Positions 7,701 to 24,413 of a stretch of DNA of 39,530 nt are shown here, in pieces. The position numbers and the translations under genes are program-made. The number at the start of each line of letters is the position of its first letter. Position 1 is the first letter of the stretch. The notes under the pieces were generated by a model. The model had not been told where the DNA came from and did not search any database. It saw nothing but the letters and a program-made list of their open reading frames with translations. The DNA lies in NCBI GenBank assembly GCA_902628635.1, contig CACONQ010000004.1:112082-151611 (forward strand). The letters are read 5' to 3'. The stretch comes from an uncultured Pelagibacteraceae bacterium (GTDB lineage: Bacteria; Pseudomonadota; Alphaproteobacteria; Pelagibacterales; Pelagibacteraceae).

Positions 7701-8876
7701 ATGGATAAATCGTTTAAAACATTTTTAAAACACACTGCAAAAGATTTTCATAATCATTCAGTAAATCCTCCAGTAGTCAGAGCTTCTACAATAATTTTTA
7801 AATCGATGAGTGATATTAGAAGAACACAGGCTAAATATAAAAGAGATCCTAGGGGCGGACATTTTGATTATGGTCGTCAAGGGACCTCTACAACACATAT
7901 ACTTTCAAAAATATTAACAAGACTTGAGGAATCTTATCATGTATTTTTGACCCCAACTGGTTTTGGAGCAGTCTTTTTGGCGATATTTAGTATTGTTAGA
8001 CCAGGTGATGAAATTTTAACGGCAGATCCAGTTTACAATCCAACAAGAATGCTTACTCAGGACTATCTTACAGAATTCGGGGTTAAAACAACTTTTTATA
8101 ATCCACATGATCTGAATTCTATTAAGAAGAATATAACTAAAAAAACTAAATTAATTTTTGTTGAAAACCCAGGGAGTAATACATTTGAGTTTCAGGATTT
8201 ATCCAAAATTATTAGTATTGCCAAAAAAAATAAAGTATTAACAGCAATAGATAATACCTGGGCAACACCATACTTTTTTAAACCAATAAAATTGGGATTC
8301 GATATGGCAATTGTATCTGCAACAAAATATTATTCAGGACATTCTGATGTTATGGGTGGAAGTTTAGCCGTAAATAAAAAAGTTTTTAAACACGTTGAAA
8401 AAGCTCAAAAGATTACAGGGTTAAGACTAGGACCTGACGATGCATATCTTATTACAAGAGGATTAAGAACTCTTGATGTCAGATTGGATAAGCACGAAGA
8501 GAATGCTAAAAAAGTTGCAGCATTTTTATCTAAAAATAAAAAAATTAAACTTCTATATCCTTACAAAAAAGGTTCATTTAATTATAAAATGTGGAAAAAA
8601 TATTACTCAGGAGCTTCAGGTTTAATGGGTATTAAAATAAAAACTAAAAATAAAAATTCTGTAATTAAATTTGTAAACTCTTTAAAATTATTTGGCTATG
8701 GATATAGCTGGGGTGGTTTTGAAAGTCTTGCTTTACATCAAGGAAAATCTGAAAGAGGAAATAGAAAATACCTAAATTTAGATAATGATGAAAGACTTGT
8801 TAGATTACACATAGGCCTTGAGGATCCAAAAGATTTGATTGAAGATTTAAGGAAATCCCTTAAATTTGTTAAATGA
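7701..8876 (+). CDS. metC: Cystathionine beta-lyase (PLP, Cys/Met metabolism family)
   Basis: A PLP-dependent enzyme expected to split cystathionine to homocysteine, pyruvate and ammonia. Family marks are NPPVVRAST near the N-terminus, YGRQGT, the PLP-lysine site VSATKYYSGHSD (K209 counted from this start) and the C-terminal GYGYSWGGFESLALHQ, which is typical of MetC rather than cystathionine gamma-synthase. The ATG at 7701 (MDKSFKTF) is chosen: it gives 391 aa and aligns with the normal family start, while the frame upstream to 7605 overlaps the minus-strand micro-gene. Its TGA overlaps the MFS start as ATGA, so it heads a six-gene overlapping operon. Confidence 0.85.
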   Translation: MDKSFKTFLKHTAKDFHNHSVNPPVVRASTIIFKSMSDIRRTQAKYKRDPRGGHFDYGRQGTSTTHILSKILTRLEESYHVFLTPTGFGAVFLAIFSIVRPGDEILTADPVYNPTRMLTQDYLTEFGVKTTFYNPHDLNSIKKNITKKTKLIFVENPGSNTFEFQDLSKIISIAKKNKVLTAIDNTWATPYFFKPIKLGFDMAIVSATKYYSGHSDVMGGSLAVNKKVFKHVEKAQKITGLRLGPDDAYLITRGLRTLDVRLDKHEENAKKVAAFLSKNKKIKLLYPYKKGSFNYKMWKKYYSGASGLMGIKIKTKNKNSVIKFVNSLKLFGYGYSWGGFESLALHQGKSERGNRKYLNLDNDERLVRLHIGLEDPKDLIEDLRKSLKFVK

Positions 8877-10093
8877 CGACTGAAAAGTTTATAAGAAACA
8901 ACACGGCCTTAGTTACATTAATAGCTGCATGCCTTGTTGTTTTAATTTCACTTAGTGTAAGGCAAGTATTTGGGTTGTTTTTCATGGATTTTAATACAGA
9001 TCTAGGAATAACAAATACAGAATTTGGTCTAGCAATTGGTATCCAAATGTTAGGATGGGGTCTTTCTGGTCCAATTTTTGGAGCTATCGCTGACAAGTAT
9101 GGTGGACACAAAGCTATTAGTTTAGCATTTTTATTTTATATTTTAGGGATATATTTTTTATTTGCTGGTCCAAACACAGGTATTTATTTTCAAATGAGTT
9201 TAGGTGTATTGATTGGAATTGGATGTGGTGGGACCGCAATAAGTATACCAATGTCAGTTGTTGGAAAACACTTTCCTTTGTCAAATAGAACAATTGCAAT
9301 GAGCATCGTTACAGCAGTTGGTTCATTTGGATATTTCATCTCTCCACTTTTCACAAATTATTCTTTAGAGAATAATGGCTGGGTTCAGACTTTAATTTAC
9401 TTTATGTTATTCTTAGTTGTAGGTTTGATTGTAGCATTTTTTGTAAGGTCTCCAAATTTAAGTGAGTCTTTAGAAAAACCTACCGACCAAAATACTGTAA
9501 GCGCACTAAAAGAAGCTTTTCAAACTAAAAGTTATGTACTACTTGTGGCTGGATTTTTTGTATGTGGATTTCATATTACTTTAGTTGGAACCCACGTTCC
9601 AAAGTATGTAATTGATAGAGGATTAGATGATTGGACTGCAGCAATGATCTTATCTTTAATAGGTTTATTTAATATATTTGGATCACTTTTAAGTGGATAT
9701 CTTTCAACTAAAATGAGTAAAAAAATAATTTTAAGCGCAATTTATTTATTAAGAGGACTATCTATCTGTTTATTTATATTTACGCCGCCAAGTACAATAA
9801 GTTCTATAATTTTTGGAGCTAGCTTCGGCTTTTTATGGCTATCAACAGTTCCAGCGACTAGCGGGATAGTGGCTCATATATTTGGAACAAAGTATTTGGG
9901 ATTATTATACGGATTAGTTTTCCTCAGCCATCAAATAGGTTCTTTTTTTGGAGCTTATCTAGGTGGTTTATTTTATGATTTGTATGGATCTTATGACTAT
10001 GCGTGGTATTTGGCAATTGCATTGTCTATATTTGCTGGTTTAATACATTTACCAATAAAAGAGCAACCAGTTGAAAGATTACAAAAAGCATAA
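8873..10093 (+). CDS. MFS transporter
   Basis: A 406-aa major facilitator with about twelve spans. GPIFGAIADKYGGHKAI between the second and third spans is the classical MFS motif A, and SGYLSTKMSKK repeats it in the second half. The overall look (SVRQVFGLFF, GLLYGLVFLSHQIGSFFGA) is that of the oxalate:formate antiporter/monocarboxylate branch, which carries small organic anions. The start overlaps metC by 4 nt (ATGA), and the next gene begins within its last codons. The substrate is not evident; given the neighbours, an amino-acid or keto-acid product is possible but unproven. Confidence 0.85.
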   Translation: MTTEKFIRNNTALVTLIAACLVVLISLSVRQVFGLFFMDFNTDLGITNTEFGLAIGIQMLGWGLSGPIFGAIADKYGGHKAISLAFLFYILGIYFLFAGPNTGIYFQMSLGVLIGIGCGGTAISIPMSVVGKHFPLSNRTIAMSIVTAVGSFGYFISPLFTNYSLENNGWVQTLIYFMLFLVVGLIVAFFVRSPNLSESLEKPTDQNTVSALKEAFQTKSYVLLVAGFFVCGFHITLVGTHVPKYVIDRGLDDWTAAMILSLIGLFNIFGSLLSGYLSTKMSKKIILSAIYLLRGLSICLFIFTPPSTISSIIFGASFGFLWLSTVPATSGIVAHIFGTKYLGLLYGLVFLSHQIGSFFGAYLGGLFYDLYGSYDYAWYLAIALSIFAGLIHLPIKEQPVERLQKA

Positions 10094-11839: not shown

Positions 11840-12557
11840 AGATCTAAAAGAAATAAAATTTAAAGATCTTTGGAACGATCATGGTGTTTTCACAACCATG
11901 CGAGTTATGGGTAAAAATAAAAAAATTCTTTTTTTTAAAGAGCATATTGAAAATTTAATAAGATCATTAAAAATTTATGGGTTAAATCAAAAAAATTTGA
12001 AAATAAATATTTTTAAGCTTATTAGAGTTAATTTATCTAAAAATCTTAATTATAATCACCTTTTAAGAGTAGCAATAAATAAAAAAATGATTTCAATCTC
12101 ACTAAGAAAAAGAATCAAACCTAAATTAAATTTTAAATTAAAATTGTTAAATTACAAAAGAATAGATCCAAGTTATAAAAATCTTAAGTATAAAAAGATA
12201 TTAAGTTATTTAAAAAAGCTTGATAATGCAGAGTATGATGTAGCCCTTCACAAGAATAAAAAATTTTTAGAGACAGGTACCTCTAATTTGTTATTTATTC
12301 AAAATAACAAAGTATACTCACCTAAAAATAATTTTTATAGTGGTATTACATTTAAATTTTTTCGTAAAAAAATTAAAATAAATTTAAGAGATGTCTATTT
12401 AAAAAATATCAATAGCTTTGACGAAATCCTTTTAATAGGATCTGGTAAAGCAGTAACATCAGTATTAAGAATAGATGAATTGAAATGGAAAAGAAAAAGT
12501 CTAAATTTTTTTAACAAATTAAACAAAATTTATCAAAAAAAAATTAATTATGCGTGA
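11802..12557 (+). CDS. pabC: Class IV PLP enzyme, probable aminodeoxychorismate lyase
   Basis: A fold-type IV PLP protein of 251 aa, the family of aminodeoxychorismate lyase, branched-chain and D-amino acid aminotransferases. Motifs seen are WNDHGVFTTMRV near residue 25, a lysine-rich segment YKNLKYKKILSY expected to hold the Schiff-base Lys, and ETGTSNLLFI with SGKAVTSV near the C-terminus. Following pabB and pabA it most likely releases pyruvate from aminodeoxychorismate to give p-aminobenzoate. The ATG at 11802 gives a 38-nt overlap with pabA, long for this genome; a non-ATG start nearer 11840 cannot be excluded. The gene is notably lysine-rich and A-rich. Confidence 0.75.
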   Translation: MATLLLKKSYLIKDLKEIKFKDLWNDHGVFTTMRVMGKNKKILFFKEHIENLIRSLKIYGLNQKNLKINIFKLIRVNLSKNLNYNHLLRVAINKKMISISLRKRIKPKLNFKLKLLNYKRIDPSYKNLKYKKILSYLKKLDNAEYDVALHKNKKFLETGTSNLLFIQNNKVYSPKNNFYSGITFKFFRKKIKINLRDVYLKNINSFDEILLIGSGKAVTSVLRIDELKWKRKSLNFFNKLNKIYQKKINYA

Positions 12558-12948
12558 TCCAAATAACCCTTGTTTATTTTGTAATATCAATAGCCAAGAT
12601 TTAGTATTTGATAATAATTTCGCCTTTGTAAGTTTTGATAGCTATCCTGTTTCAAAATATCATTCTTTAATAGTTCCTAAAAGACACATTTTAGATTATT
12701 TCGAACTTAATAATGATGAACTGCTAGCATGTAATGACCTTATTAAAAAAATTAAAAAAAAAATTCAAAACGAAGATAAAACAGTTGACGGTTTTAATAT
12801 CGGTACAAACTCAGGGGTAGCAGCTGGACAATCTATAATGCACTGTCATATACACTTGATTCCAAGAAGAAAAGGTGATGTGGACAATCCACAGGGTGGA
12901 GTTAGGGGCGTAATACCATCAAAACAGCATTATATTAGAAAAAAGTAA
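12550..12948 (+). CDS. HIT-family nucleotide hydrolase
   Basis: A 132-aa histidine-triad protein. The triad is H98-C-H100-I-H102 in MHCHIHLIPRR, the N-terminus has CLFCNI with a zinc-type cysteine pair, and SKYHSLIVPKRH is the conserved middle strand. Such proteins hydrolyse AMP or GMP conjugates (HinT/Fhit type). It overlaps the lyase gene by 8 nt and is the last gene of the overlapping metC-to-HIT operon; no obvious terminator follows. Confidence 0.9.
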   Translation: MRDPNNPCLFCNINSQDLVFDNNFAFVSFDSYPVSKYHSLIVPKRHILDYFELNNDELLACNDLIKKIKKKIQNEDKTVDGFNIGTNSGVAAGQSIMHCHIHLIPRRKGDVDNPQGGVRGVIPSKQHYIRKK

Positions 12949-13033: not shown

Positions 13034-13828
13034 ATGATTACAACAAATCCTTTTTCATTACTTTCTGAAACAATACCATCAATCGCATTACAAGCTTTTG
13101 TGTTAGTAATGGTTGGATTGGTTGCTGCAGGAACAATTTTGGATATCATCCATAAAAAAAATGTAAAATATTTTTTTAATAATGCAAAAAAAGCAAAAAA
13201 AAATGCAACAAGAGAATTAGGAACTGGTGAAAGAATAGCTATCATTGGAAAAACAATCGTTCACGACATTGGAACAACGTCTGAGTTGGGAATGGGCAAA
13301 AGAAGAATTGCTCACGTGTTAGGAATGTATGGTACAATTTTATTTTGGGCTGGCTCAGCTGTGATGATATTTTGTTATTCATCAGCAAATGCAGAAACAC
13401 CAATTTTTTGGCCAGCTATATGGCACTTAGGTGCGTTTATGACTTGCCTTGGTGGTTTTTGGTTTTGGTTTTTTCTTAGAGTTGATGTAGCTGCAGAAGC
13501 TCACTCAGTTTTTAGAATCATTCAAGCAGATTTATTTGTATTAGCACTTCTAGCGTCATCACTGTTTGGTTTATTGTGGTCATTTTTTCAAGCAAAAGGT
13601 ATGTTTGGATGGGACACTTTATTTCTAGTTCTATTCGTAGTTTCTAATATAGTTCTCTTTGGGGGGGTATATTGGTCAAAATTTGCTCATATGTTTTATA
13701 AACCAGGAGCTGCTATTCAAAAAAATCTAGCAGAAGCGGATGGCTCTAGAGATAATCTACCTGAGCCTGCTGATGCACCTGAGCAGTTTGGTTTAGGGAT
13801 AAAAAGAGAGCAACCCAAACATTATTAA
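13034..13828 (+). CDS. aprM: AprM, membrane anchor of APS reductase
   Basis: A 264-aa inner-membrane protein with about five or six spans and a polar region near residues 45-90. It directly precedes aprB and aprA, the arrangement described for the AprM membrane subunit of sulfur oxidisers and Pelagibacter. Histidines within or near spans (HVLGMYG, WHLGAF) could ligate heme b, as in related NarI/HdrE-like subunits. It would pass electrons between AprBA and the quinone pool. It ends 31 nt before aprB. No clear promoter motif is seen in the 85 nt upstream. The identity rests mainly on context and general architecture. Confidence 0.82.
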   Translation: MITTNPFSLLSETIPSIALQAFVLVMVGLVAAGTILDIIHKKNVKYFFNNAKKAKKNATRELGTGERIAIIGKTIVHDIGTTSELGMGKRRIAHVLGMYGTILFWAGSAVMIFCYSSANAETPIFWPAIWHLGAFMTCLGGFWFWFFLRVDVAAEAHSVFRIIQADLFVLALLASSLFGLLWSFFQAKGMFGWDTLFLVLFVVSNIVLFGGVYWSKFAHMFYKPGAAIQKNLAEADGSRDNLPEPADAPEQFGLGIKREQPKHY

Positions 13829-13859
13829 TATGATACAGTTGAAAGGAAAAAATTAAATT

Positions 13860-14330
13860 ATGTCAACTTTTGTTTATATGACTAGATGCGATGGATGTGG
13901 ACACTGCGTAGATATTTGTCCGTCAGACATCATGCACATAGACGAGACAATTAGAAGAGCAAAAAATATAGAACCAAATTTTTGTTGGGAATGTTATTCG
14001 TGTGTTAAGGCGTGCCCTAACCATGCAATTGACGTAAGAGGTTATGCAGATTTTGCTCCAATGGGTCATAGTGTTAGAGTTAGAAGAGAAGAGGAAAAAG
14101 GAACAATTTCTTGGAGAATAAAATTTAGAAATGGTACAGAAAAAAATTTTGTATCACCCATCACAACTAAACCTTGGGGAAAATTTATTCCTAAACTTGC
14201 AGAAGCAGACACGCCTAATCAGGGTGAAATAAATTCTCAAATTCTTTATAATGAACCACATGGATTAAATACTGAGAAAGACTTACCAACTGTTGATAAA
14301 AGTAAATTTAAAAAAGGTGTTTACTATTAA
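13860..14330 (+). CDS. aprB: Adenylylsulfate reductase beta subunit
   Basis: The iron-sulfur subunit that relays electrons between the AprA flavin and the membrane partner. Two [4Fe-4S] motifs are evident: C10-x2-C13-x2-C16-x3-C20 (CDGCGHCVDICP) and C42-x2-C45-x2-C48-x3-C52 (CWECYSCVKACP). The C-terminal tail (SWRIKFRNGTEKNF and beyond) is the extension that wraps around AprA in the known family structure. The length, 156 aa, is normal. A purine-rich GAAAGGA lies upstream, and its stop overlaps the aprA start by 1 nt, so the two are translated together. Confidence 0.93.
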   Translation: MSTFVYMTRCDGCGHCVDICPSDIMHIDETIRRAKNIEPNFCWECYSCVKACPNHAIDVRGYADFAPMGHSVRVRREEEKGTISWRIKFRNGTEKNFVSPITTKPWGKFIPKLAEADTPNQGEINSQILYNEPHGLNTEKDLPTVDKSKFKKGVYY

Positions 14331-16189
14331 TGCCTAAATCAAAAACAGTATACGAAGAATGTGATGTACTTGTTGTTGGTGGAGGAATGGCAGGCACCGG
14401 TGCAACCTTTGAAGCAAGACACTGGGGTAGGGATTTAAAAATCATTTGTGTAGAAAAAGCAAACATCGATAGAAGTGGAGCAGTTGCTCAAGGGTTATAT
14501 GCAATTAACTGTTATATGGGTATGCAGTGGAATGAAAATCAACCTGAGGACCATGTACGTTATGCAAGGAACGATTTAATGGGTCTTGTCAGAGAAGACT
14601 TAGGTTACGACATGGCTCGTCATGTTGATTCAACAGTACATATGTTCGATGAATGGGGTTTGCCTATGATGAAAAATAAAGAGACAGGCAGATACCAAAG
14701 AGAAGGTAAATGGCAGATAATGATCCATGGTGAGAGTTATAAACCAATTGTTGCTGAGGCAGCAAAAAAATCTGCAGATAAAATTTACAATAGAATTATG
14801 ATCACTCATTTATTAATGGATGAGACAAAAGAAAATAGAGTAGGTGGCGCAGTAGGATTTAATATGAGAACAGGTGATTACCATGTTTTTAGATCAAAGA
14901 CAGTAATTGTTGCTGCGGGTGGAGCATCTCACATATTTAAACCTAGAGCAGTGGGAGAAGGAATGGGTAGAACATGGTATGCACCATGGTCTAATGGATC
15001 AGCTTATGCACTCCCGATTGCTGCTGGAGCAAAAATGACTCAAATGGAAAATAGAATTGTTTTATGTAGATTTAAAGACGGATATGGTCCTGTTGGTGCA
15101 TACTTTTTACATTTAAAAACGTATACTCAAAATGCAAATGGAGAAAACTACGAAAAAAAATGGTATAACCAAACAAAAGAATTAGTTGGCGAATATATAG
15201 ACCATCACCCAACACCAACTTGTTTAAGAAATCATGCATTTGTTCAAGAAGTAATGTCTGGTAATGGACCTATACACATGGTTACAAAAGAAGCATTTCA
15301 AGACCCACATTTAGAAACAGTTGGATGGGAAAATTTTTTAGGAATGACTGTAGGTCAAGCTGTGGTATGGGCTTCTCAAAATATCGATCCAAAATATACT
15401 AATCCGGAATTAACCACTTCTGAACCATATGTGATGGGATCTCATGCAACTTGCTCAGGAGCATGGGTTAGTGGACCAGAAGATATATCACCACCTGAAT
15501 ATTTTTGGGGCTATAATAGAATGACAACTGTGGAAGGTCTTTTCGGTGCAGGAGATACGGTTGGAGGTAGTGCACACAAATTTTCATCAGGTTCTTTCAC
15601 TGAAGGAAGATTGGCTGCTAAAGCAGCTGTAAAATATATTGAGGAAAAAAAAGCAAAAGACTTAAAAGTATCAGATAAACAATGTGAGGATTTTAGGGAA
15701 GTTATTTATAAGCCATTAGATAATTACACAATAGGTAGAAACGAAATTACGGGTGGAACTGTATCACCTAGTTATATTTCTCCTATACAGGGCCTACAAA
15801 GATTACAAAAAATAATGGATGAATACGTAGGTGGTATTTCAGTAAACTACATGACCAATGAAAATTTACTTAAAAAAGGTTTGGAATTATTAGATTGGTT
15901 AACTGAGGACTTAGAGAATGTTGGAGCTGAGGATTATCATCAATTAATGAGAGCGTGGGAACTGAAACATAGAACATTAACTTCTCAGTGTGTAACTGAG
16001 CATACTTTGTTTAGAAAAGAAACTCGTTGGCCTGGCTACTATTACAGAGGCGATTATATGAAATTGGATGATGAGAATTGGCATTGTCTAACAGTTTCTA
16101 GAAGAGATCCAAAAACTGGTAAGTTTACGATGGAAAAACAACCCGTTTATCATATTATTGACGAAAAAGAAAAAAAGCAGGCTTCTTAA
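14330..16189 (+). CDS. aprA: Adenylylsulfate reductase alpha subunit
   Basis: The FAD-containing catalytic subunit, which interconverts sulfite plus AMP with APS. The dinucleotide fold is at VVGGGMAGTGA (residues 15-25). RSGAVAQGLYAINCYMG and RHVDSTVHMFDEWGLPM are characteristic AprA segments, followed by GAGDTVGGSAHKFSSGSFTE near residues 405-425 (second FAD-binding region) and the C-terminal WPGYYYRGDY. The length, 619 aa, is typical. With no sulfate-assimilation genes here and with two sulfite-releasing enzymes downstream, the oxidative direction is most likely. ATP sulfurylase (sat), the usual next step, is not in the window. Confidence 0.95.
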   Translation: MPKSKTVYEECDVLVVGGGMAGTGATFEARHWGRDLKIICVEKANIDRSGAVAQGLYAINCYMGMQWNENQPEDHVRYARNDLMGLVREDLGYDMARHVDSTVHMFDEWGLPMMKNKETGRYQREGKWQIMIHGESYKPIVAEAAKKSADKIYNRIMITHLLMDETKENRVGGAVGFNMRTGDYHVFRSKTVIVAAGGASHIFKPRAVGEGMGRTWYAPWSNGSAYALPIAAGAKMTQMENRIVLCRFKDGYGPVGAYFLHLKTYTQNANGENYEKKWYNQTKELVGEYIDHHPTPTCLRNHAFVQEVMSGNGPIHMVTKEAFQDPHLETVGWENFLGMTVGQAVVWASQNIDPKYTNPELTTSEPYVMGSHATCSGAWVSGPEDISPPEYFWGYNRMTTVEGLFGAGDTVGGSAHKFSSGSFTEGRLAAKAAVKYIEEKKAKDLKVSDKQCEDFREVIYKPLDNYTIGRNEITGGTVSPSYISPIQGLQRLQKIMDEYVGGISVNYMTNENLLKKGLELLDWLTEDLENVGAEDYHQLMRAWELKHRTLTSQCVTEHTLFRKETRWPGYYYRGDYMKLDDENWHCLTVSRRDPKTGKFTMEKQPVYHIIDEKEKKQAS

Positions 16190-16204
16190 TTTTAATTATT
16201 AATC

Positions 16205-16555
16205 ATGAGCTTAATCGAAAAGTCAGATGAGGATATCATCAAGATAGCCGACCCTATTTGGAATAATCTAGTTAAATCCTCAAACATAAAAGACTATGGA
16301 GGATTTACTAAAGATTTTTCATCACAAATGCTTTATGGAGCCAATGAAGTTGAGCTTGGAAAACAGTGGGCAAATAACGATTTAATATCAAGTCTTAAAG
16401 AAAATTGTAAGCCTATGGGCTGTTTAAGAAGAGGAGCTTATGTAACAGTAATCTATAAGCAAAACAGCTCTAAGATACCCGGAGACTTTATTGGTAGGCT
16501 TGTTCTGGGAGAGGAAGGCGGCGATATAAAGGTATTTGGAGCTACAATTTTTTAA
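16205..16555 (+). CDS. Conserved-looking uncharacterised protein in the apr operon
   Basis: A 116-aa soluble protein that starts 15 nt after the aprA stop and so is presumably co-transcribed. I do not recognise the family. It has an acidic N-terminal helix (SDEDIIKIADPIWNNLVKS), a two-cysteine segment ENCKPMGCLRRGAYVTVIY, and a beta-rich C-terminus (GRLVLGEEGGDIKVFGATIF). It has no signal peptide and no membrane span. Its position suggests a role tied to AprBA, for example maturation or regulation, but that is inference only. Confidence 0.7.
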   Translation: MSLIEKSDEDIIKIADPIWNNLVKSSNIKDYGGFTKDFSSQMLYGANEVELGKQWANNDLISSLKENCKPMGCLRRGAYVTVIYKQNSSKIPGDFIGRLVLGEEGGDIKVFGATIF

Positions 16556-16621
16556 AAAAAAATTCTATCAATTAGTAATTTAATCTTGCAAACTTAGGTA
16601 TATTTGTGCTATTCGGCGGAT

Positions 16622-16765
16622 ATGCTTAATTATTTAAACTTAAAAAAAACATTTAAGCATATACCTCAAAACTTTAGTTCTTTTAACTCAAAAATACTAA
16701 TTTACTTAGGCTTGATAGCTTATTGGGGAGTAATTTTAGTAGGAACATTATTTCACATTAATTAG
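16622..16765 (+). CDS. 47-aa single-span membrane protein between the apr genes and tauE
   Basis: A 48-codon frame (ATG 16622, TAG 16765). The N-terminal half is basic and polar (MLNYLNLKKTFKHIPQNFSS) and the C-terminal half is one membrane span, ILIYLGLIAYWGVILVGTLF. GGCGGA lies just before the ATG but closer than usual for a ribosome site. A helix topped by positive residues with a Trp-Gly pair looks like a genuine small membrane protein, and it fills an otherwise empty 255-bp gap between two sulfur genes on the same strand. The function is unknown; it could be a small subunit of the AprM complex or of the exporter. Confidence 0.6.
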   Translation: MLNYLNLKKTFKHIPQNFSSFNSKILIYLGLIAYWGVILVGTLFHIN

Positions 16766-16794
16766 CAATCATAAGTTGACTTTAATATTCTACA

Positions 16795-16808
16795 GGAATA
16801 ATTATTCC
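16795..16808. repeat. 14-bp perfect palindrome before tauE
   Basis: GGAATAATTATTCC ends 2 nt before the tauE start codon at 16811. A TTGACT at 16776-16781 lies upstream at a plausible -35 position. It could be an operator, a hairpin over the start region, or chance in A+T-rich DNA. Confidence 0.35.
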
Positions 16809-16810
16809 TA

Positions 16811-17908
16811 ATGGAGTATTTTCTTCCAATTGCAGAGGTCTATGTAAGTTTACCTTTAATATTTCTTTTAAGTTTATTTGTAGGAGTTTTGTCAGGTCTT
16901 TTTGGTGTTGGTGGAGGATTTTTAATGACTCCGTTTCTTATTTTTATGGGCATTCCACCAGCTTATGCAGTCCCTAACGAAGCTAACAATATTTTAGGAA
17001 CTTCAATATCAGGGTCAACAACTCACTATTTAAAAGGAACTTTAGACTACAAAATGGGTTTGATGATTGTTGTTGGAGGTACTGCGGGAACTTTACTTGG
17101 AATTTTAACTTTTACTTATTTTAAAGATATTGGAAAAATCAATGTCGTTATTTCATTATCTTATATGTACATACTTGCAATAATTGGAACGTTAATGCTT
17201 GTTCAAGGCATCACTGAAATAGATAGGGCAAGAAAAAAAATTGTTGTCAAAAAAAAACTCCACGAACATTATTGGATACACGGATTACCATTTAGAATGA
17301 AATTTAAAAAATCTAAACTTTACGAGAGTGTTTTTACACCAATAATAATCGGATTAATCGTTGGATTTATTGCAGCAATAATGGGTATTGGAGGTGCATT
17401 TATACTTGTTCCAGCAATGATTTATATAATTGGGATGCCCACCAAATTAATTCCTGGCACATCTTTATTCGTAACTATTTTTATAAGTGCAATTGTAACT
17501 GTTTTACATGCTTTTAATTATGGATCAATTGATCTTATTTTAGTTACTGTATTGATATTAGGATCAATTTTAGGTGTTCAAATTGGTCAAAAAATTGGAG
17601 AGAAAGTAGATAGTTCAGAATTTAAAACAATTTTAGCGGTTCTATTATTATTAGTAGGAATAGCAGTAGCATACGACTCATTTTTTGCGGAGCAAGCCTA
17701 TAATGAGACTAAAAAAATTGGAACTGAAACATTAGATCCAATAGCAACATTCGTTAGAGATTTATCAAAAGAAATGCCAATACTTTATGGAATGTTTTCA
17801 ATTGTATTGGCCCTTGTACTTGGTGTGGGTGCGGCAATCTTGAGAAGATTTCTGTCAAATATAAGAAAGAAATATATTCATACTGCTCCTCCTGCTTCAC
17901 AAAAGTAA
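16811..17908 (+). CDS. tauE: TauE/SafE-family sulfite or sulfonate exporter
   Basis: A 365-aa membrane protein with the duplicated TauE/SafE architecture. The first half carries GLFGVGGGFLMTPFLIFMGI and the second half IMGIGGAFILVPAMIYIIGM, the signature glycine-rich repeats; a charged cytoplasmic linker (residues about 135-175) separates them. An extra C-terminal span follows. The family moves sulfite, sulfoacetate or related anions out of cells that degrade sulfonates. Between apr and xsc/suyAB genes, sulfite efflux is the natural reading. It begins 45 nt after the 47-aa gene. Confidence 0.87.
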   Translation: MEYFLPIAEVYVSLPLIFLLSLFVGVLSGLFGVGGGFLMTPFLIFMGIPPAYAVPNEANNILGTSISGSTTHYLKGTLDYKMGLMIVVGGTAGTLLGILTFTYFKDIGKINVVISLSYMYILAIIGTLMLVQGITEIDRARKKIVVKKKLHEHYWIHGLPFRMKFKKSKLYESVFTPIIIGLIVGFIAAIMGIGGAFILVPAMIYIIGMPTKLIPGTSLFVTIFISAIVTVLHAFNYGSIDLILVTVLILGSILGVQIGQKIGEKVDSSEFKTILAVLLLLVGIAVAYDSFFAEQAYNETKKIGTETLDPIATFVRDLSKEMPILYGMFSIVLALVLGVGAAILRRFLSNIRKKYIHTAPPASQK

Positions 17909-17943
17909 TATCAATTTTTAAAAAATTCTGTTAATTTTTTAAA

Positions 17944-18312
17944 ATGAAAAAAATTCTAATTTTAATATTTTGTATCTTCAGTTTCCAATCAATCGCAATG
18001 GAAAAACAAACGACTTTTGATATTGATTTATTTAAAAAAGCTCAGTCTGATGGAAAAGTGGTAGTAGTAAGCTCATGGATAAAGTATTGCAGCTCCTGTG
18101 CAAGTCAAATGAAAGTTTTAAATAAAATTGAGGAAGACTTCAAAAATATAGTTTATCTAAACTTTGACGTAAGAAATGAAGATATTTCAAATTTACTAAA
18201 TGTTGAATATCAGACAACTTTATTAATTTTTAAAAATAATAAAGAGGTTTATAGAAGCATAGGCGAAACTACTAAGGAAAAAATATATAAAGCTATAAAT
18301 TCATCTATTTGA
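17944..18312 (+). CDS. Exported thioredoxin-like protein
   Basis: A 122-aa thioredoxin-fold protein with an N-terminal hydrophobic signal sequence (about residues 1-19), so it is probably periplasmic. The redox motif is C49-S-S-C52 in SSWIKYCSSCASQMKVL. The fold is supported by VYLNFDVRNEDISNLLNVEY and QTTLLIFKNNKEVYRSIGE, with Thr before the usual cis-Pro region (YQTTLL replaces the common TP), so a proline is missing there. It resembles SoxW/DsbD-gamma type thioredoxins that act with sulfur oxidation or cytochrome maturation. It lies 35 nt after tauE and is convergent with the suyB-like gene. Confidence 0.75.
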   Translation: MKKILILIFCIFSFQSIAMEKQTTFDIDLFKKAQSDGKVVVVSSWIKYCSSCASQMKVLNKIEEDFKNIVYLNFDVRNEDISNLLNVEYQTTLLIFKNNKEVYRSIGETTKEKIYKAINSSI

Positions 18313-18314
18313 AA

Positions 18315-19481
18315 TTAAGCACTTCTGTAAAGTTTAGTCATAACAAACTCTTTATGACCTAAAGCCTCTGCACAAGTAAGTCTACCGTTAGCAACTCTTA
18401 AAGTTGCCTTTATCAATTCATCTCCAGCTTGATCAAGATTCATTTGACGAGAAAGTATTTTTGAAACATCCACATCTATGTGTTCACTCATAGTTTTAGC
18501 TGTTAATGGATTTGCTGTTAACTTAATCACCGGTTCAATTGGGTTACCAATAATATTTCCTTGTCCAGTCGGAAATAAATGAATATTAAAACCACCTGCA
18601 GCTTGTAATGTTACACACTCTGCTGCAGCAGATGAAGTATCCATGAAATATAATCCTTTTCCCTTTGTTGGTTCTTCAGCAGGTTCTAAAACATCAATAA
18701 ATTGTCTAGAACCAATTTTTTGAAAGTTTCCAAAAGCTTTTTCCTCAATTGTGGTTAGCCCTCCAGCTATATTCCCTGCTGTTGGCTGGCTTTCAGATAA
18801 ATCATCAGTTGCTTCTTTTAATATAAAATCATTATAATCACTCCAAGTTTTCATAAATTTCTTTTGAGCTTCAGGAGTTTTTCCTCTTTTGGCACACACT
18901 GTTTCAGCGCCAGTTAACTCTGAAGTTTCGCCGAAACATAAATGAACACCAAAAGGTTCTAATTTATCCATTAAATTTCCAACGGTAGGGTTTGAAGCAA
19001 GTCCGGATGTTGTATCTGACTCACCACATTTTACAGAGATCCACAAATCGCTCATTGGACATTCCTCTCTTTGTTTTTCTGATGCCCACATTGAAAACTC
19101 TTGCGCTTTTTTTGAAACCTTTGCAATTGTGTCTATATCTCCAACTCCCTCAATACTAAAACCTTCTACTGGCTTTCCAGTTTTTGCGATAGCATCCACA
19201 ATTCTTTTTGTCCACTTTGGCTCAATTCCAATAACAATCACCGCTGCAACATTTGGGTTTTTTCCAGTACCGATCATTGTTCTAAAATGCAATTCTAAAT
19301 CTGCCCCAAACTGAAGTCGTCCATAGGAGTGGGGAAGTGCAATTGTTCCTTTTATATTATTTGCTACTGCTTCAGCACATGCATTTGAAATATCATCAAC
19401 TGGTAAAATAATTACATGGTTTCGAGTACCAGCTCTTCCATTTTCTCTTTTATATCCTAAAAAACTTTTTGGTATTTCCAT
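18315..19481 (-). CDS. suyB: UxaA-family large subunit, probable (R)-sulfolactate sulfo-lyase SuyB
   Basis: A 388-aa protein of the UxaA (altronate/galactarate dehydratase) C-terminal family. Recognisable segments are [79 protein letters not shown], and [20 protein letters not shown] stand-alone small subunit encoded just upstream is the layout of SuyAB, which cleaves (R)-sulfolactate to pyruvate and sulfite. Location between a sulfite exporter/APS reductase and xsc strongly favours this over sugar-acid dehydration; uronate genes are absent. It starts 1 nt after the small-subunit stop. A dehydratase role remains the alternative. Confidence 0.76.
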
Positions 19482-19482
19482 A

Positions 19483-19770
19483 TTACCACTTTTTTGTTTT
19501 TACGTTATGAACATGAACATGCTCACCTTTTTTGATATTTTTAACAACCTTACCAATATCGTGCCCATATTTTAATATTGTGTCTCCCTCTTTTAAATCG
19601 GTCATTGCTATCTTATGTCCCAGGGGTATTTCGCTGATAGATTGGATTTTTGCCGATTTATCATTTTCCATTATCCAGCAATTACACTCTTGATTTGGCT
19701 TAATTTTTTCTATTACAACCACCCCAACGTTATCTTTTTCATCGTGGATTATGACTTCTGTACTGCTCAT
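19483..19770 (-). CDS. suyA: SAF-domain small subunit, probable SuyA
   Basis: A 95-aa protein corresponding to the N-terminal SAF domain of UxaA-type lyases. It contains [16 protein letters not shown], the conserved [25 protein letters not shown], and the ending [14 protein letters not shown], all typical of the small subunit that sits against the large catalytic chain. The SuyA/SuyB proportions (about 95 and 390 aa) match. The gene is divergent from xsc across an 81-bp gap, so the two sulfonate enzymes may share control. Confidence 0.77.
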
Positions 19771-19851
19771 TATTTATTTCTTGTTTGAAATTCCTAAGAT
19801 CTTATATATTAATCACATTCATTAACAAATAAAAAATTGTAGAGAATTCTT
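19771..19851. promoter_or_regulatory. Divergent control region between suyA and xsc
   Basis: This 81-bp gap must hold promoters for both sulfonate genes. On the plus strand TTGTTT (19781-19786) and TATATT (19805-19810) are 18 nt apart and form a passable sigma-70-like pair for xsc; AGAGAA lies near the start codon as a weak ribosome site. No clear operator palindrome was seen. Confidence 0.4.
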
Positions 19852-21639
19852 ATGACTAAAATGACTACAGAAGAAGCTTTTATAAAAGTTCTTCAAATGC
19901 ACGGTATAGAACATGCTTTCGGTATTATTGGTTCTGCATTCATGCCTATATCAGATTTGTTTCCAAAAGCTGGAATTACTTTCTGGGATGTTGCACATGA
20001 AACTAACGGGGGATTGATTGCTGATGGTTACACAAGAGCAACAGGTAAAATGTCAATGGTAATTGCTCAAAATGGTCCAGGTATAACTGGATTAGTAACA
20101 CCAATAAAAACCGCTTATTGGAATCATACACCACTTTTATTAGTCACGCCACAAGCAGCTAATAAGACTATGGGCCAAGGTGGCTTTCAAGAAGTAGAGC
20201 AGATGAATTTATTTAAAGATATGGTTTGTTATCAAGAAGAGGTAAGAGATCCATCAAGAATGGCAGAAGTATTAAATAGAGTTATTGAAAAAGCAATTAG
20301 GGGATCTGCGCCAGCACAAATAAATGTTCCAAGGGATTATTGGACACAAGTCATAGATATTGATTTACCACCGATAGTTAGATTTGAGAGACAAGGTGGT
20401 GGTAAAGATGCAATCGATCGTGCAGCAAAATTATTATCAGATGCAAAATTCCCAGTAATATTATCTGGGGCAGGAGTTGTTATTGGAAATGCTATTGAAG
20501 ATTGCAAAAAACTAGCAGAAAAATTAGATGCTCCAGTTTGTAACGGTTACCAACACAATGATAGTTTTCCAGGAAGTCATCCATTAGCGGTTGGACCTTT
20601 AGGATATAACGGATCAAAAGCTGGCATGCAACTGATCTCTAAAGCTGATGTTGTATTAGCATTAGGAACTAGATTAAATCCGTTTTCAACTTTACCTGGT
20701 TACGGAATAGATTACTGGCCAAAAAATGCAAAAATTATTCAAGTTGACATGAACCCAGATAGAATAGGGCTTACAAAAAAAGTTACTGTTGGAATTTGTG
20801 GTGATGCAAAAATGGTAGCACAACAAATTTTGGAGAAATTATCTAAAAATGCAGGAGATGGTGGTAGAGAAGAGAGAAAAAACCTAATTCATCAGACTAA
20901 ATCTGCGTGGTTACAAACTTTAACTGGATTAGATCATGAGGAAGATGATCCAGGAACTGTTTGGAACAAAGAAGCAAGAGAAAGAGATAAAGATAGAATG
21001 TCTCCAAGACAAGCATGGAGAGCAATACAAGAAGCGATGCCTACTGATGTAATTATATCAAGTGATATCGGAAATAATTGTGCGATTGGTAATGCTTATC
21101 CTACATTTGAAAAGGGAAGAAAATATTTAGCACCTGGATTATTTGGTCCTTGTGGATATGGCTTTCCAGCAATTCTTGGTGCAAAAATCGGTTGTCCTGA
21201 TACACCAGTTATTGGTTTTGCAGGAGATGGGGCTTTTGGAATAAGTATGAATGAAATGAGTTCATGCGCAAGAAAAGAATGGCCAGCAATCACTATGGTT
21301 ATTTTTAGAAATTATCAGTGGGGTGCTGAAAAAAGAAATTCAATTCTATGGTTTGATGATAATTTTGTTGGTACCGAACTTGATCCAGAACTAAGTTTTG
21401 CAAAAGTAGCAAATGCTTGTGGTTTAAAGGGGGTTACAGTGAAAACAATGGCAGAAACTACAACAGCCATAAAGAAATCATGCGAGGATCAAAAAAAAGG
21501 AATTACAACTTTTATTGAAATTATTCTGAATCAGGAATTAGGGGAACCTTTTAGACGAGATGCAATGAAAAAACCAGTCGAGGTTGCTGGTATTAAAAAA
21601 GAGGATATGAAGCCCCAGATTTCTGAAAATAATAGATGA
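19852..21639 (+). CDS. xsc: Sulfoacetaldehyde acetyltransferase Xsc
   Basis: A thiamin-diphosphate enzyme that converts sulfoacetaldehyde and phosphate to acetyl phosphate and sulfite. The 595-aa length and sequence fit Xsc rather than acetolactate synthase: FWDVAHETNGGLIADGYTRA near the N-terminus, SMVIAQNGPGITG, TMGQGGFQEVEQM, and NPFSTLPGYGIDYWP. The ThDP/Mg motif begins at GDGAFGISMNE near residue 458. Xsc is the common end point of taurine, isethionate and sulfoacetaldehyde catabolism. No taurine aminotransferase or pta/ackA gene lies nearby. Its stop codon overlaps the start of a sugar aminotransferase-like gene by 4 nt, an odd partner. Confidence 0.93.
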   Translation: MTKMTTEEAFIKVLQMHGIEHAFGIIGSAFMPISDLFPKAGITFWDVAHETNGGLIADGYTRATGKMSMVIAQNGPGITGLVTPIKTAYWNHTPLLLVTPQAANKTMGQGGFQEVEQMNLFKDMVCYQEEVRDPSRMAEVLNRVIEKAIRGSAPAQINVPRDYWTQVIDIDLPPIVRFERQGGGKDAIDRAAKLLSDAKFPVILSGAGVVIGNAIEDCKKLAEKLDAPVCNGYQHNDSFPGSHPLAVGPLGYNGSKAGMQLISKADVVLALGTRLNPFSTLPGYGIDYWPKNAKIIQVDMNPDRIGLTKKVTVGICGDAKMVAQQILEKLSKNAGDGGREERKNLIHQTKSAWLQTLTGLDHEEDDPGTVWNKEARERDKDRMSPRQAWRAIQEAMPTDVIISSDIGNNCAIGNAYPTFEKGRKYLAPGLFGPCGYGFPAILGAKIGCPDTPVIGFAGDGAFGISMNEMSSCARKEWPAITMVIFRNYQWGAEKRNSILWFDDNFVGTELDPELSFAKVANACGLKGVTVKTMAETTTAIKKSCEDQKKGITTFIEIILNQELGEPFRRDAMKKPVEVAGIKKEDMKPQISENNR

Positions 21640-22874
21640 ATTATAACAAAAAACTTCAACTTATAAAAAAAATATTTATCCAAAAAAAGAGTAAGAACAA
21701 AAAGTTTACTTATCCTCTTTTAACAGATGGATACTCAAGTTCTGATTTACAAGAAGCATCAAAAGTATTGTTAAGTGGCAGACTGACCATGTCTAATATA
21801 ACAAAAAAGTTTGAAAAGTATTTTGCAAAAAAAATTGGCTCAAAATATGCACTGATGGTAAATTCAGGCTCATCTGCAAACTTACTAGCTTTATTTTGTT
21901 TAATTAATCCTTATAAAAAAAATAGACTTAAAAAAGGCGATGAGTGCATTGTTCCATCACTATGCTGGTCCACATCCTTATGGCCAATTATTCAGGCTGG
22001 GTTAAGCCCTGTTTTTGCTGATGTAAATCTAGAAACATTTACACTTGACTTAGAAACTATAAAAAAAAATATTACAAAAAAAACTAAAGCTATAATGATA
22101 CTTAATGTTCTCGGTAATTGCTCTGAAATGGATAGAATAAAAAATTTTTGTAATAAAAAAAAAATCTATTTAATCGAAGACTCTTGCGAGGCGCTCGGTT
22201 CGAAATATAAAAATAAATATCTTGGAACTTTTGGAAATTTTGGAACCTTTTCTTTTTATTACTCACATCAAATTACATCTGGAGAAGGAGGAATGATAGT
22301 TTGCGACTCTAAGCAAGATTTTAATATATTAAAATCATTAAGAGCTCATGGATGGGACAGAGAGATAAATAAAAAAAACGTTAAGGATTTTAATTTTATA
22401 AATGAAGGTTTTAATCTAAGACCATTAGACATAACAGCTTCCGTTGGATTAAATCAATTTAAAAGATTAAACAAATTAAAGAGCACAAGAGCTAAAAATA
22501 GAGATAATTTAATAAAATCTTTAAAGTTATCAAAGAAATGGAACAATCAATTTTCATTTTTTAATCCTCAAAAAAATCTAGATCCAAGTTGGTTTGGCTT
22601 TCCTCTTATGATCAATAAAAACAAAATAAAATCAAAGGTAAATTTTTTAAAATTTCTTAATAAGAATCAAATTGAAACCAGACCGATAATAAGTGGGAAT
22701 TTTATTAACCAGCCGGCAATTAAAAAATATAAGATAAGATATAGAAGAAGTGATTTAAAAAATTCACAAGATATAGAGGATAGAGGTTTTTTTATTGGTT
22801 TACCGACAGAAATTCTTGACAGATCAAAAATAAACAGGATTACAAATTTGTTGCTTAATGTTAATAATTTCTAA
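21636..22874 (+). CDS. DegT/DnrJ/EryC1-family PLP enzyme of the sugar 3-dehydratase (ColD/RfbH) type
   Basis: A 412-aa sugar-nucleotide PLP/PMP enzyme. NSGSSANLLAL, LIEDSCEALGSKY and GTFGNFGTFSFYYSH are family marks. The position that holds the Schiff-base Lys in aminotransferases (ATKNxTTGEGG) is His211 here (SHQITSGEGG), the replacement found in ColD and RfbH/E1, which remove the C3 hydroxyl to make 3,6-dideoxysugars. It is therefore predicted to be a GDP- or CDP-4-keto-6-deoxyhexose 3-dehydratase and not an aminotransferase. The RfbH [2Fe-2S] cysteine pattern is not obvious, so the ColD type is more likely. It overlaps xsc by 4 nt and the SDR gene by 1 nt. Confidence 0.78.
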   Translation: MNYNKKLQLIKKIFIQKKSKNKKFTYPLLTDGYSSSDLQEASKVLLSGRLTMSNITKKFEKYFAKKIGSKYALMVNSGSSANLLALFCLINPYKKNRLKKGDECIVPSLCWSTSLWPIIQAGLSPVFADVNLETFTLDLETIKKNITKKTKAIMILNVLGNCSEMDRIKNFCNKKKIYLIEDSCEALGSKYKNKYLGTFGNFGTFSFYYSHQITSGEGGMIVCDSKQDFNILKSLRAHGWDREINKKNVKDFNFINEGFNLRPLDITASVGLNQFKRLNKLKSTRAKNRDNLIKSLKLSKKWNNQFSFFNPQKNLDPSWFGFPLMINKNKIKSKVNFLKFLNKNQIETRPIISGNFINQPAIKKYKIRYRRSDLKNSQDIEDRGFFIGLPTEILDRSKINRITNLLLNVNNF

Positions 22875-23707
22875 TGTTAAAATGTGGAATTACTGGAGCA
22901 ACAGGTGTTTTGGGTAGACGAATTATTAAAAAATTACCTTATAAATTTTTAATTTTTAAAGAAAAAATTGAAAATTATAAAAAAGTTAAAAAATGGGTAA
23001 ATTTAAATAAATTTGATATAGTTTTACATTTAGCAGCCATTGTACCAACAAATAAAGTAAATAAAAATTATAAAAAAGCAAAATCTGTAAATATTTATGG
23101 CACTAAAAATTTAGTCAAAGCTATATTAGAAACTTCCAATCCTCCCAAATGGTTTTTTTATGCCTCTACATCTCATGTTTATCCGTCTACTTTCAAAAAA
23201 AAAAAATTTTCTGAAAAAGATAAAGTAAAGCCTTACTCTCAATATGGTAAAACAAAACTTGGTGGAGAAAAAATTGTAGAAAAAAATTTTAAAAATAAAA
23301 AAATTAATTTTTGCATAGGAAGAATTTTCAGTTTTACTGATAAAAATCAAAAAATACCTTTTGTAATTCCAGGCCTTATATCAAAAATTCAATATACAAA
23401 ACAGAAACAACTAAGATTAAGCAATTTAAATCATTATAGAGATTTTTTATCAACAGAGGATATTGCGTTAGCAATTAAAATTCTTGGTAAACACTGCAAA
23501 AAGGGCACTTATAATATTGGTAGCGGCAAAGAAATAAATTTAAAAAATATTGCAAAAATTATTGCAAAAAAATATAAGAAAAAAATATCTTTTGAAAAAG
23601 ATAATAAGCCAACATTTTTAATTAGCAACAGTAGTAAATTAAAAAGACTAGGATGGAAGCCTAAAAAATTTAAAAATAGTATAAATTATTTTTACTCAAA
23701 TGCGTAA
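22874..23707 (+). CDS. NAD-dependent epimerase/reductase (extended SDR)
   Basis: A 277-aa extended short-chain dehydrogenase acting on nucleotide sugars. The Rossmann motif is GITGATGVLGRRI (residues 5-17), followed by VLHLAAIVPTNK, the catalytic ASTSHVYP Ser and YGKTKLGGEK Tyr/Lys, and CIGRIFSFTD. It starts on the last base of the 3-dehydratase-like gene. Such a pair resembles ColD with ColC, where ColC epimerises C5 and reduces C4 to give GDP-colitose; another 3,6-dideoxyhexose is equally possible. Lys and Asn content is extreme, as in the other genes of this cassette. Confidence 0.78.
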   Translation: MLKCGITGATGVLGRRIIKKLPYKFLIFKEKIENYKKVKKWVNLNKFDIVLHLAAIVPTNKVNKNYKKAKSVNIYGTKNLVKAILETSNPPKWFFYASTSHVYPSTFKKKKFSEKDKVKPYSQYGKTKLGGEKIVEKNFKNKKINFCIGRIFSFTDKNQKIPFVIPGLISKIQYTKQKQLRLSNLNHYRDFLSTEDIALAIKILGKHCKKGTYNIGSGKEINLKNIAKIIAKKYKKKISFEKDNKPTFLISNSSKLKRLGWKPKKFKNSINYFYSNA

Positions 23708-24413
23708 CATTTCTATTATAATACCTACTTATAAAGAAAAAGAGAACATATTCAAATTAACAAGCAAGATTTTAAGTCTTTACCCAAAAACGATTATATT
23801 TGTTATTGATGATACAAAAAATTCAAATTTAAAAAATAGATTTAGGAGTAATAGGATCAAATATTTTTCAAGAAAGAATAAAAAAGGAAGAGGATCAGCT
23901 GTTTTATATGGTTTCAAAAAATCTTTACAATATAAATCAAGTAATATTTTCATAGAAATGGATGCTGATTTTTCACACAATCCAATAGAATTAAAAAAAA
24001 AAATAGAATTTTTTATTAAAAATGATTTAGATTTATTAATTTCGAGTAGATATTTAGAAAAAAGCAAGATTATTAATTGGCCAATTCAAAGATTAGTATT
24101 TTCAAAATTATCAAATATGTTTGCTCAATTGTTATTAAATGTTGGAGTAACAGATTATACAAATGGTTTTAGGATTTATTCAAGAAGATCTGTAGAGTTA
24201 ATTGTAAAAAGGTGTGGCAAGATTGGTGACGGATTTATTGTACTTTCTGAAATTCTGCTGACTATAAAATTAAATAAATTTAAAATAAGGGAATTACCAA
24301 CAATTTTTGTAAATCGAAGAAGAGGAGAAAGCTCAGTTAACTTTAAACTTATTATTCAATCATTAATTGGAATACTAAAGTTATATTTTATCAAAATTAA
24401 TAATTCACCGTGA
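23700..24413 (+). CDS. Family 2 glycosyltransferase, polyprenyl-phosphate sugar synthase type
   Basis: A 237-aa GT2 enzyme resembling dolichol-phosphate mannose synthase. ISIIIPTYKEKENI opens the GT-A fold, FIEMDADFSHNP carries the DxD-type metal motif, and TDYTNGFRIYSRRSVELI with RRRGESSVNF matches the DPM1 C-terminal half. It lacks the C-terminal membrane spans of ArnC/GtrB types. It probably charges a polyprenyl phosphate with a sugar for use outside the membrane. It overlaps the SDR gene by 8 nt and ends the cassette; the convergent membrane gene ends 121 nt further on, with no clear terminator between. Confidence 0.82.
   Translation: MRNISIIIPTYKEKENIFKLTSKILSLYPKTIIFVIDDTKNSNLKNRFRSNRIKYFSRKNKKGRGSAVLYGFKKSLQYKSSNIFIEMDADFSHNPIELKKKIEFFIKNDLDLLISSRYLEKSKIINWPIQRLVFSKLSNMFAQLLLNVGVTDYTNGFRIYSRRSVELIVKRCGKIGDGFIVLSEILLTIKLNKFKIRELPTIFVNRRRGESSVNFKLIIQSLIGILKLYFIKINNSP

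Follow-up and report, generated by a model that had tools for sequence, protein, structure and literature searches.

According to PMC12636525, suyAB and xsc are core or near-core sulfite producers in SAR11, and aprAB, likewise core and under strong purifying selection, probably removes the sulfite; passages of PMC5864207 describe growth of SAR11 on taurine and mention an earlier proposal that its apr genes detoxify sulfite. Desulfonation and AprAB-dependent removal of sulfite in SAR11 are already published, and the open point is what happens to the adenosine 5'-phosphosulfate (APS) that AprAB would form, its release as sulfate being a step without a known enzyme in these bacteria, the commonest of the ocean. 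We analysed a stretch of 39,530 nucleotides (hereafter the window; contig CACONQ010000004.1 of assembly GCA_902628635.1, positions 112,082 to 151,611) from an uncultured Pelagibacteraceae bacterium, in which aprMBA, suyAB and xsc lie together at 13034–21639 and a gene for a HIT-domain protein adjoins aprM. An earlier reading of the letters alone (the sequence-only reading) had called this combination notable; given the published core genes, it is not surprising for SAR11. What is new here is the HIT protein, as a candidate for the step from APS to sulfate, and a conserved, predicted NTF2-like partner of AprMBA.

The window resembles the SAR11 system of PMC12636525 in its genes, its lineage and the proposed logic; section 19 of that paper makes no mention of a shared locus, a HIT gene, a gene for a 116-residue protein or the fate of APS. 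With the sat-aprMBA operon of the Allochromatium vinosum type (passages of PMC3779200) the window shares the order aprM-aprB-aprA, but it has no sat, carries the HIT gene upstream instead and has desulfonation genes attached. The cluster of Cupriavidus pinatubonensis named hpsRNOUPsuyAB in passages of PMC11382572, seen here on a plasmid of strain HN-2 (L004), has a similarly split SuyAB with a SuyB 64% identical to that of the window, whereas the window block is without hps genes and has apr genes beside suyAB. Candidatus Taurinisymbion, described in passages of PMC10356861 with tauABC, tpa, xsc, aprAB and sat, is alike in that sulfite derived from Xsc is oxidized via APS; unlike SAR11, which has AprM and mostly no Sat, it has Sat and Qmo/Hdr.

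Our analysis indicates that the window block is very probably a conserved locus for the desulfonation of sulfonates and the disposal of sulfite in SAR11 (Pelagibacteraceae). The genes named by the sequence-only reading are intact, since every frame at 13034–21639 is open and closed by a single terminal stop, and AprB, AprA, the TauE/SafE permease and Xsc all score over curated cut-offs. The apr genes lie on the plus strand as aprM (13034..13828), aprB (13860..14330; TIGR02060 191.6 bits, cut-off 135.65; also PF12139) and aprA (14330..16189; TIGR02061 1001.2 bits, cut-off 641.75), and AprB has eight cysteine residues at 10, 13, 16, 20, 42, 45, 48 and 52. No Pfam or NCBIfam model fits aprM, a membrane protein gene of the APS reductase locus with approximately five hydrophobic helices, which was named by its position; it stands directly 5' of aprB in 17/17 apr loci that reach that far, and in an eighteenth (L059) the contig ends within aprA. 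With both subunits over their cut-offs and aprM directly upstream, the enzyme probably falls into AprBA lineage I, to which P. ubique is assigned in passages of PMC2211403. Downstream lie suyB (18315..19481, minus strand; PF20629 and PF04295) and suyA (19483..19770, minus strand), predicted to encode the large and small subunits of (2R)-sulfolactate sulfo-lyase, followed by the sulfoacetaldehyde acetyltransferase gene xsc (19852..21639, plus strand; TIGR03457 972.3 bits, equivalog cut-off 676.4).

Conservation was examined in an order sample of 97 genomes, made up of the family of the window (f1, n=48) and a second family (f2, n=49), and in 80 SAR11 aprA loci, the best 80 of 585, almost all with Pelagibacteraceae or Pelagibacterales in the record title. 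The denominators of the locus counts are the loci with enough flank, those with short flank being left out, and one locus (L087), with an aprA 100% identical to that of the window, may be its near twin. Within f1, suyB (at least 87% identity) was found in 39/48 genomes and aprA in the identical 39, and the gap between the two genes was 1.5–2.9 kb in 36 of them. At the level of loci, suyB lay within 5 kb of aprA in 66/67 and tauE within 2.5 kb in 71/73, and xsc was present alongside suyB in 64/64. The second family had aprA in 31/49 genomes (three of these being fragments) and suyB in none of the 49. The neighbourhood is thus strongly conserved across SAR11, beyond what chance would give, and the conserved part begins farther upstream than 13034, taking in the HIT gene (12550–12948) and a major facilitator superfamily (MFS) gene (8873–10093). 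The sequence-only reading had regarded a block split in close relatives, with no co-expression, as evidence against it; the arrangement is intact in most of them and split in three of the 39, with gaps of 14.6 kb (G096), 19.6 kb (G024) and 24.5 kb (G058). In these three (G058 C6, G024 C2, G096 C4) an insertion or rearrangement adjoins the conserved block.

The same reading had taken the block as a single module, with a putative carbon- and electron-yielding role in the use of C2 and C3 sulfonates. The linkage of desulfonation and APS enzymes stands, but suyBA runs on the minus strand and separates two groups of plus-strand genes; the block therefore comprises at least three transcription units and is not one operon. 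Nor does the thioredoxin-like gene (17944..18312, plus strand; N-terminal hydrophobic segment, CSSC, PF00085 39 bits) belong to it: we rejected it as a part because it occurs in just 10/69 related loci with enough flank. Thus the observation was confirmed, whereas its interpretation has partial support and is, for SAR11, largely known already.

The UxaA-type pair is SuyAB, as judged by sequence relationships. In a tree of 20 rows, a 12-row SuyB clade, including four rows from SAR11, lies on one side of a branch with 100/100 support; on the other are Escherichia coli UxaA and GarD, the split pair of Variovorax and five further rows of UxaA type. Gene context supplied the names of the reference rows in this tree, and no row was named through a tested accession. 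The SuyB group itself is firm, although some of the outer branches are long and one of them joins it. An altronate or galactarate dehydratase, the grouping that would have spoken against the sequence-only reading, was therefore rejected. The small and large subunits are split and adjacent, 1 bp apart, and SuyA shares 41–52% identity with the small UxaA subunits encoded next to four suyB homologues from plasmids. Among 316 plasmid records matched by the window SuyB, 13 show 60.5–70.3% identity and the next best 40%. These close plasmid genes stand beside annotated hpsN and hpsO in C. pinatubonensis HN-2, beside a putative sulfate exporter in Paracoccus, beside a trio of histidinol-dehydrogenase-like, short-chain dehydrogenase/reductase and alcohol-dehydrogenase genes in Rhodobacteraceae SC52, and beside TauE in Methylobacterium.

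ATP sulfurylase, which the sequence-only reading had suggested looking for elsewhere in the genome, was not found with PF01747 in the genome of the window (G000; 0.99 Mb, 83.75% complete, the window being on contig C4), nor in 92/97 genomes of the order, the CysDN type not having been searched. The model did match in 5/97 order genomes and in 5/14 control genomes, and it was without a match in 66/70 genomes with strong aprA matches. This agrees with passages of PMC10356861, in which ATP sulfurylase is lacking in most SAR11. That APS would mostly be formed without ATP sulfurylase is the main gap that the earlier reading overlooked, and the neighbouring HIT gene may fill it.

The HIT gene (12550..12948, plus strand) encodes 132 residues, overlaps pabC by 8 bases and ends 85 bp before aprM. 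It scores 66.9 bits to PF01230 (cut-off 21.5) and carries the superfamily motif HxHxHxx as HCHIHLI, with the three histidine residues invariant in 23/23 aligned HIT rows, which places the protein in the HIT superfamily. A close HIT gene occurs in 36/39 f1 genomes with aprA and in 0/9 without it (Fisher 1.3e-7, relatedness not corrected); Fisher and hypergeometric values given here treat related genomes as independent. No such gene was detected in three aprA-bearing f1 genomes, namely G028, G070 and G040, and in G040 the contig ends inside aprA. Where present, it lies 1.4–1.5 kb from aprA in 35/36 f1 genomes and 4.5 kb away in G096, and in 57/59 same-strand loci the HIT match ends 86–119 bp before the aprM match. 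The close HIT is distinct from further HIT copies in the same genomes, the majority of which match it at 22–35%; an additional relative is present elsewhere in G013 and in G020, the copy of G020 being fused to an HNH nuclease domain.

Outside the genus of the window the position of the HIT gene changes. In the sister genus g5, which is without a window-like pabB, HIT follows suyB directly on the same strand (G034, G094 and L113), and in G034 and G094 it therefore stands on the suyB side of aprA; a g5 HIT gene was located at L044 8836–9234. G332, from another alphaproteobacterial family, has the order sat, several open reading frames (ORFs), aprB, aprA, an ORF with a CxxCxxCC domain, HIT and xsc, and G716, from outside the class, has HIT 2.1 kb from the gene for the 116-residue protein behind aprA, with sat upstream of aprM. 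A 20-row HIT tree is divided by a 100/99 branch into two subfamilies, one grouping the window type with G716, G390, G451, G461 and G411, and the other grouping the g5 type with G332, G217 and HNH-fused proteins. Genes from two or more HIT subfamilies thus came to neighbourhoods of this type. In a phylum sample of 398 genomes, eight besides that of the window have a close HIT (E 1e-30 or better), and five of these have a copy of stand-alone size, a division from fused homologues that was decided post hoc with the data already seen. Four of the five also carry aprA and the gene for the 116-residue protein, close together only in G716, compared with 13 aprA genomes among 60 others, which were the lowest-numbered and not a random choice (p = 0.015). 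In the class sample, a close HIT is present in six genomes from outside the order; two of the six, G332 and G217, belong to the 13 genomes with strong aprA. HIT homologues were also found on eight plasmids.

Members of the HIT superfamily that act on APS share the HIT domain and the HxHxHxx motif with the window protein; those compared here (Fhit, Hint4 and DcpS) are eukaryotic, whereas the window protein belongs to a bacterial subfamily and is a candidate. Hint4 and DcpS reportedly act on APS as both hydrolases and phosphorylases, according to a title cited in PMC7072326 and PMC8704414, and ADP-sulfurylase is the subject of Bruser et al. 2000. For human and Arabidopsis Fhit, passages of PMC7072326 describe the release of AMP from APS. 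Because HIT enzymes are known to split APS, we tentatively propose that the HIT protein of the window may release sulfate from APS, although we would put this at somewhat less than an even chance. The open-licence PMC papers searched yielded none that links a HIT gene to aprBA, subscription papers (for example older ones on Pelagibacter apr) being outside that scope.

On this proposal, SuyAB would convert (R)-sulfolactate into pyruvate and sulfite, and Xsc would convert sulfoacetaldehyde into acetyl phosphate and sulfite. AprBA, anchored by AprM and running in the oxidative direction, would turn sulfite and AMP into APS with the release of two electrons, and TauE might export sulfite or a sulfonate. 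The HIT protein would then cut the P-O-S anhydride of APS, either by hydrolysis to AMP and sulfate or by phosphorolysis to ADP and sulfate; the AMP (or ADP) would be recycled, and AprBA and HIT together would give a net oxidation of sulfite to sulfate without ATP sulfurylase. The 116-residue protein could serve AprMBA as an accessory in assembly, docking or product hand-off. For the explanation as a whole, the module and the HIT step taken together, we see a chance only slightly short of even. The wider statement that SAR11 and some other bacteria take sulfite to sulfate by AprBA and HIT, instead of or beside ATP sulfurylase, with AMP cycling as a cofactor, is a possibility that we put forward with more reserve. 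If it holds, HIT would supply the last step from sulfite to sulfate, explain the conservation of AprBA without Sat and give a marker gene. Surface-ocean SAR11 consumes taurine and other sulfonates and the fate of the sulfur is an open question; with a candidate enzyme encoded beside the apr genes, this question becomes testable with one purified protein of 132 residues.

Several results weigh against a role of HIT in APS cleavage, and many of them favour a different account of the same module, in which HIT is a bystander, a general diadenosine tetraphosphate (Ap4A) or phosphoramidate hydrolase belonging to the pabABC operon for 4-aminobenzoate. HIT enzymes accept many adenylates. In addition to the overlap with pabC, window-type HIT accompanies pab in 51/51 SAR11 loci that can be judged, for which 3.5 kb or more of upstream sequence is available. 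The two relatives in the genus that lack aprA (G064 and G066) are also without a window-like pabB, so that pab and apr are absent together; since pab loss is shared with apr loss and HIT is always with pab, HIT is inseparable from pab within the genus. Relatives of the window HIT are widespread, and some are parts of HNH nuclease fusions that show no connection to apr. The opposite side of the argument comes mainly from genomes in which pab and HIT part company. The g5 genomes G034 and G094, without a window-like pabB, keep HIT behind suyAB; G028 and six of 66 loci retain pab and apr without HIT; no pab match was found near the HIT homologues of G716, G390, G451, G461 and G411; and the presence of two HIT subfamilies at this type of neighbourhood is not predicted if HIT merely travels with pab. 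We consider a bystander HIT unlikely, but it has to be taken seriously. The remaining difficulties concern the link to apr itself. HIT is missing within 3.5 kb upstream in 18/70 aprA loci (one of which, L113, has it behind suyB), G028 and G070 (the latter a g5 genome) have aprA and no such HIT, and f2 carries aprA but neither a close HIT nor suyB. In the phylum sample, leaving out the division into stand-alone and fused copies reduces the association to 4/8 genomes other than that of the window with a close HIT, and the 13 aprA genomes among the 60 have neither a close HIT nor the gene for the 116-residue protein, which means that HIT does not accompany aprA in general. HIT is not near apr in G390, G451, G461 and G217. 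G332 (estimated to be 8% contaminated) and G716 have ATP sulfurylase near apr (PF01747 285.8 and 285.6 bits respectively), and HIT is therefore no substitute for Sat there.

APS cleavage by HIT has also to be set against two other accounts of what becomes of the sulfite. One is that AprBA mainly detoxifies traces of sulfite while most of it leaves through TauE, in which case the fate of APS would hardly matter. The TauE-family gene close to aprA in 71 of the 73 loci would fit this, as would the remark in passages of PMC10356861 that excretion of sulfate on taurine has yet to be demonstrated for SAR11 in culture. However, the substrate of TauE is unproven, PMC12636525 places aprAB among the core genes under the strongest purifying selection, and without a sink for APS the AMP would presumably stay trapped as APS; we regard this account as very improbable. 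The other involves an HXGH nucleotidyltransferase-like protein (124–131 residues) which, together with a P-loop APS-kinase-like protein, would form a minimal unit with ATP sulfurylase activity or making 3'-phosphoadenosine 5'-phosphosulfate (PAPS) from sulfite-derived APS. In five f2 loci an HXGH gene of 130–131 residues and an APS-kinase-like gene adjoin the apr locus, and across f2 HXGH is present in 29/31 genomes with aprA (the two misses having aprA fragments only) and in 0/18 without. HXGH also precedes aprM immediately in L043 and L044, and in L151 and L164 the distance is one or two genes. The kinase scores best as adenylyl-sulfate kinase, one f2 copy reaching PF01583 28.9 bits (cut-off 21.1), the best PDB match of another copy is adenylyl-sulfate kinase, and HXGH itself gave a weak PF01747 match of 17 bits, below the cut-off of 24.3. 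Against this, HXGH scores better as a nicotinamide mononucleotide (NMN) adenylyltransferase-like protein, though under all NCBIfam cut-offs, and the kinase is below every NCBIfam cut-off. HXGH also lies away from apr in the genus of the window and is present in the aprA-less G064 and G066, as likewise in G038 and G090 of the family, it is lacking in 4/39 aprA-bearing f1 genomes, and its structure model is poor (predicted local distance difference test (pLDDT) 62) and unsuited to a fold search. Such a unit is improbable as the answer, if less so than disposal through TauE. Among the aprA-bearing f1 genomes, each of the four that lack HXGH has HIT, and each of the three in which no HIT was detected has HXGH; these complementary misses are too few and could be due to chance.

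Paired HXGH and P-loop kinase-like genes were seen at L049 4289–5171, L050 3611–4496, L151 7048–7829 and L085 7778–8558, such pairs standing beside apr in f2 and some f1 loci and elsewhere in the genus of the window; they are possibly a minimal unit of the PAPS or NMN type. Five phages likewise carry homologues of HXGH, two of which are annotated as kinase.

Directly after aprA lies the second new element of the locus, an ORF of 116 codons (16205..16555, plus strand) found no more than 300 bases from the end of aprA in 80/80 SAR11 loci. Its profile matches 17/398 genomes of the phylum sample. Outside the order, the aprA end lies directly upstream in 9/9 strong matches (E 1.3e-39 or better), one of these (G505) being on a contig that holds only the last part of aprA, and a tenth match (G480) is cut by the contig end. 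Weaker matches occur in genomes without aprA, namely G433, G466, G544, G548 and G612 (E 2e-14 to 3e-8) and G522 (3e-20), indicating that the family at large serves other purposes as well. Within the class sample the gene follows aprA in L070 and L083, that is 2/14 loci outside the order, and no copy was detectable near the remaining loci of that sample, including lineage-I-like aprMBA loci. The protein has no Pfam, NCBIfam or PHROGs family, and its PDB sequence matches are at chance level (E 0.43 and 0.58). An AlphaFold2 model (pLDDT 88) gave a best Foldseek match of E 8.7e-4 to an S1C-NTF2 protein, further rows being mostly NTF2-like with PBP2a chains too, and VIA-align gave Z 9–10.7 over approximately 100 residues to many NTF2/cystatin-like chains. 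The protein is thus predicted to have an NTF2-like fold, a match that carries no functional information, and from its synteny we infer that it is an accessory of AprMBA. It would be the second partner proposed here for an enzyme that is widely used in the sulfur cycle, and apparently an unstudied one. Outside SAR11, a conserved-looking ORF of approximately 170 codons follows the gene (L191 7657–8166, L189 8606–9115, L196 7926–8441 and L197 7273–7809); the L191 copy, which was scanned, has no Pfam match, and the product is possibly an APS reductase accessory.

The TauE/SafE permease gene (16811..17908, plus strand; PF01925 156 bits, cut-off 32.6) encodes a possible sulfite or sulfonate exporter. 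Between it and the gene for the NTF2-like protein lies an ORF for a 47-residue one-helix membrane peptide (16622..16765, plus strand; hydrophobic helix at 25–43), which was compared with PHROGs only and is poorly conserved, being detected in 31/80 loci with flank disregarded. The conserved upstream neighbour, the MFS transporter gene (8873..10093, plus strand; PF07690 152 bits), precedes aprA in 55/56 SAR11 loci with at least 8 kb upstream; an HpsU-like transporter was rejected for it, because its product does not really resemble the MFS protein encoded in the hps cluster of C. pinatubonensis. No structured RNA was found in the block at Rfam gathering scores, the only hit being a tRNA-Leu at 39008.

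Several loci and neighbouring regions showed further arrangements. In L139 (13402–15069) and L151 (12455–13682), genes for a small cytochrome c and a homocysteine-S-methyltransferase-family protein lie between the apr group and suyBA, called in L139 by PF13442 and PF02574; L151 has no tauE match, and the cytochrome c gene occupies the tauE place. A TENA/haem-oxygenase-like gene stands near the start of the apr group in L043 (5640–6305), L044 (3033–3698) and L151 (7925–8608), identified by PF03070 in L044 and by eye in the other two. Proteins of approximately 330 residues with an HNH domain and a C-terminal HIT domain (PF01844 and PF01230) are encoded at L054 4452–5444, L174 7919–8908 and L218 5636–6622, and similar HNH-HIT-type proteins, which were not domain-scanned, at L175 3098–4096 and L219 5820–6806. 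The L054 gene is close to a C5 cytosine DNA methylase gene, and these proteins look like restriction or defence nucleases with a HIT domain. In the window itself, at 21636–24413, the last 4 bases of xsc are shared with a DegT-type aminotransferase gene, the first in a same-strand run of sugar- or surface-polysaccharide-type genes.

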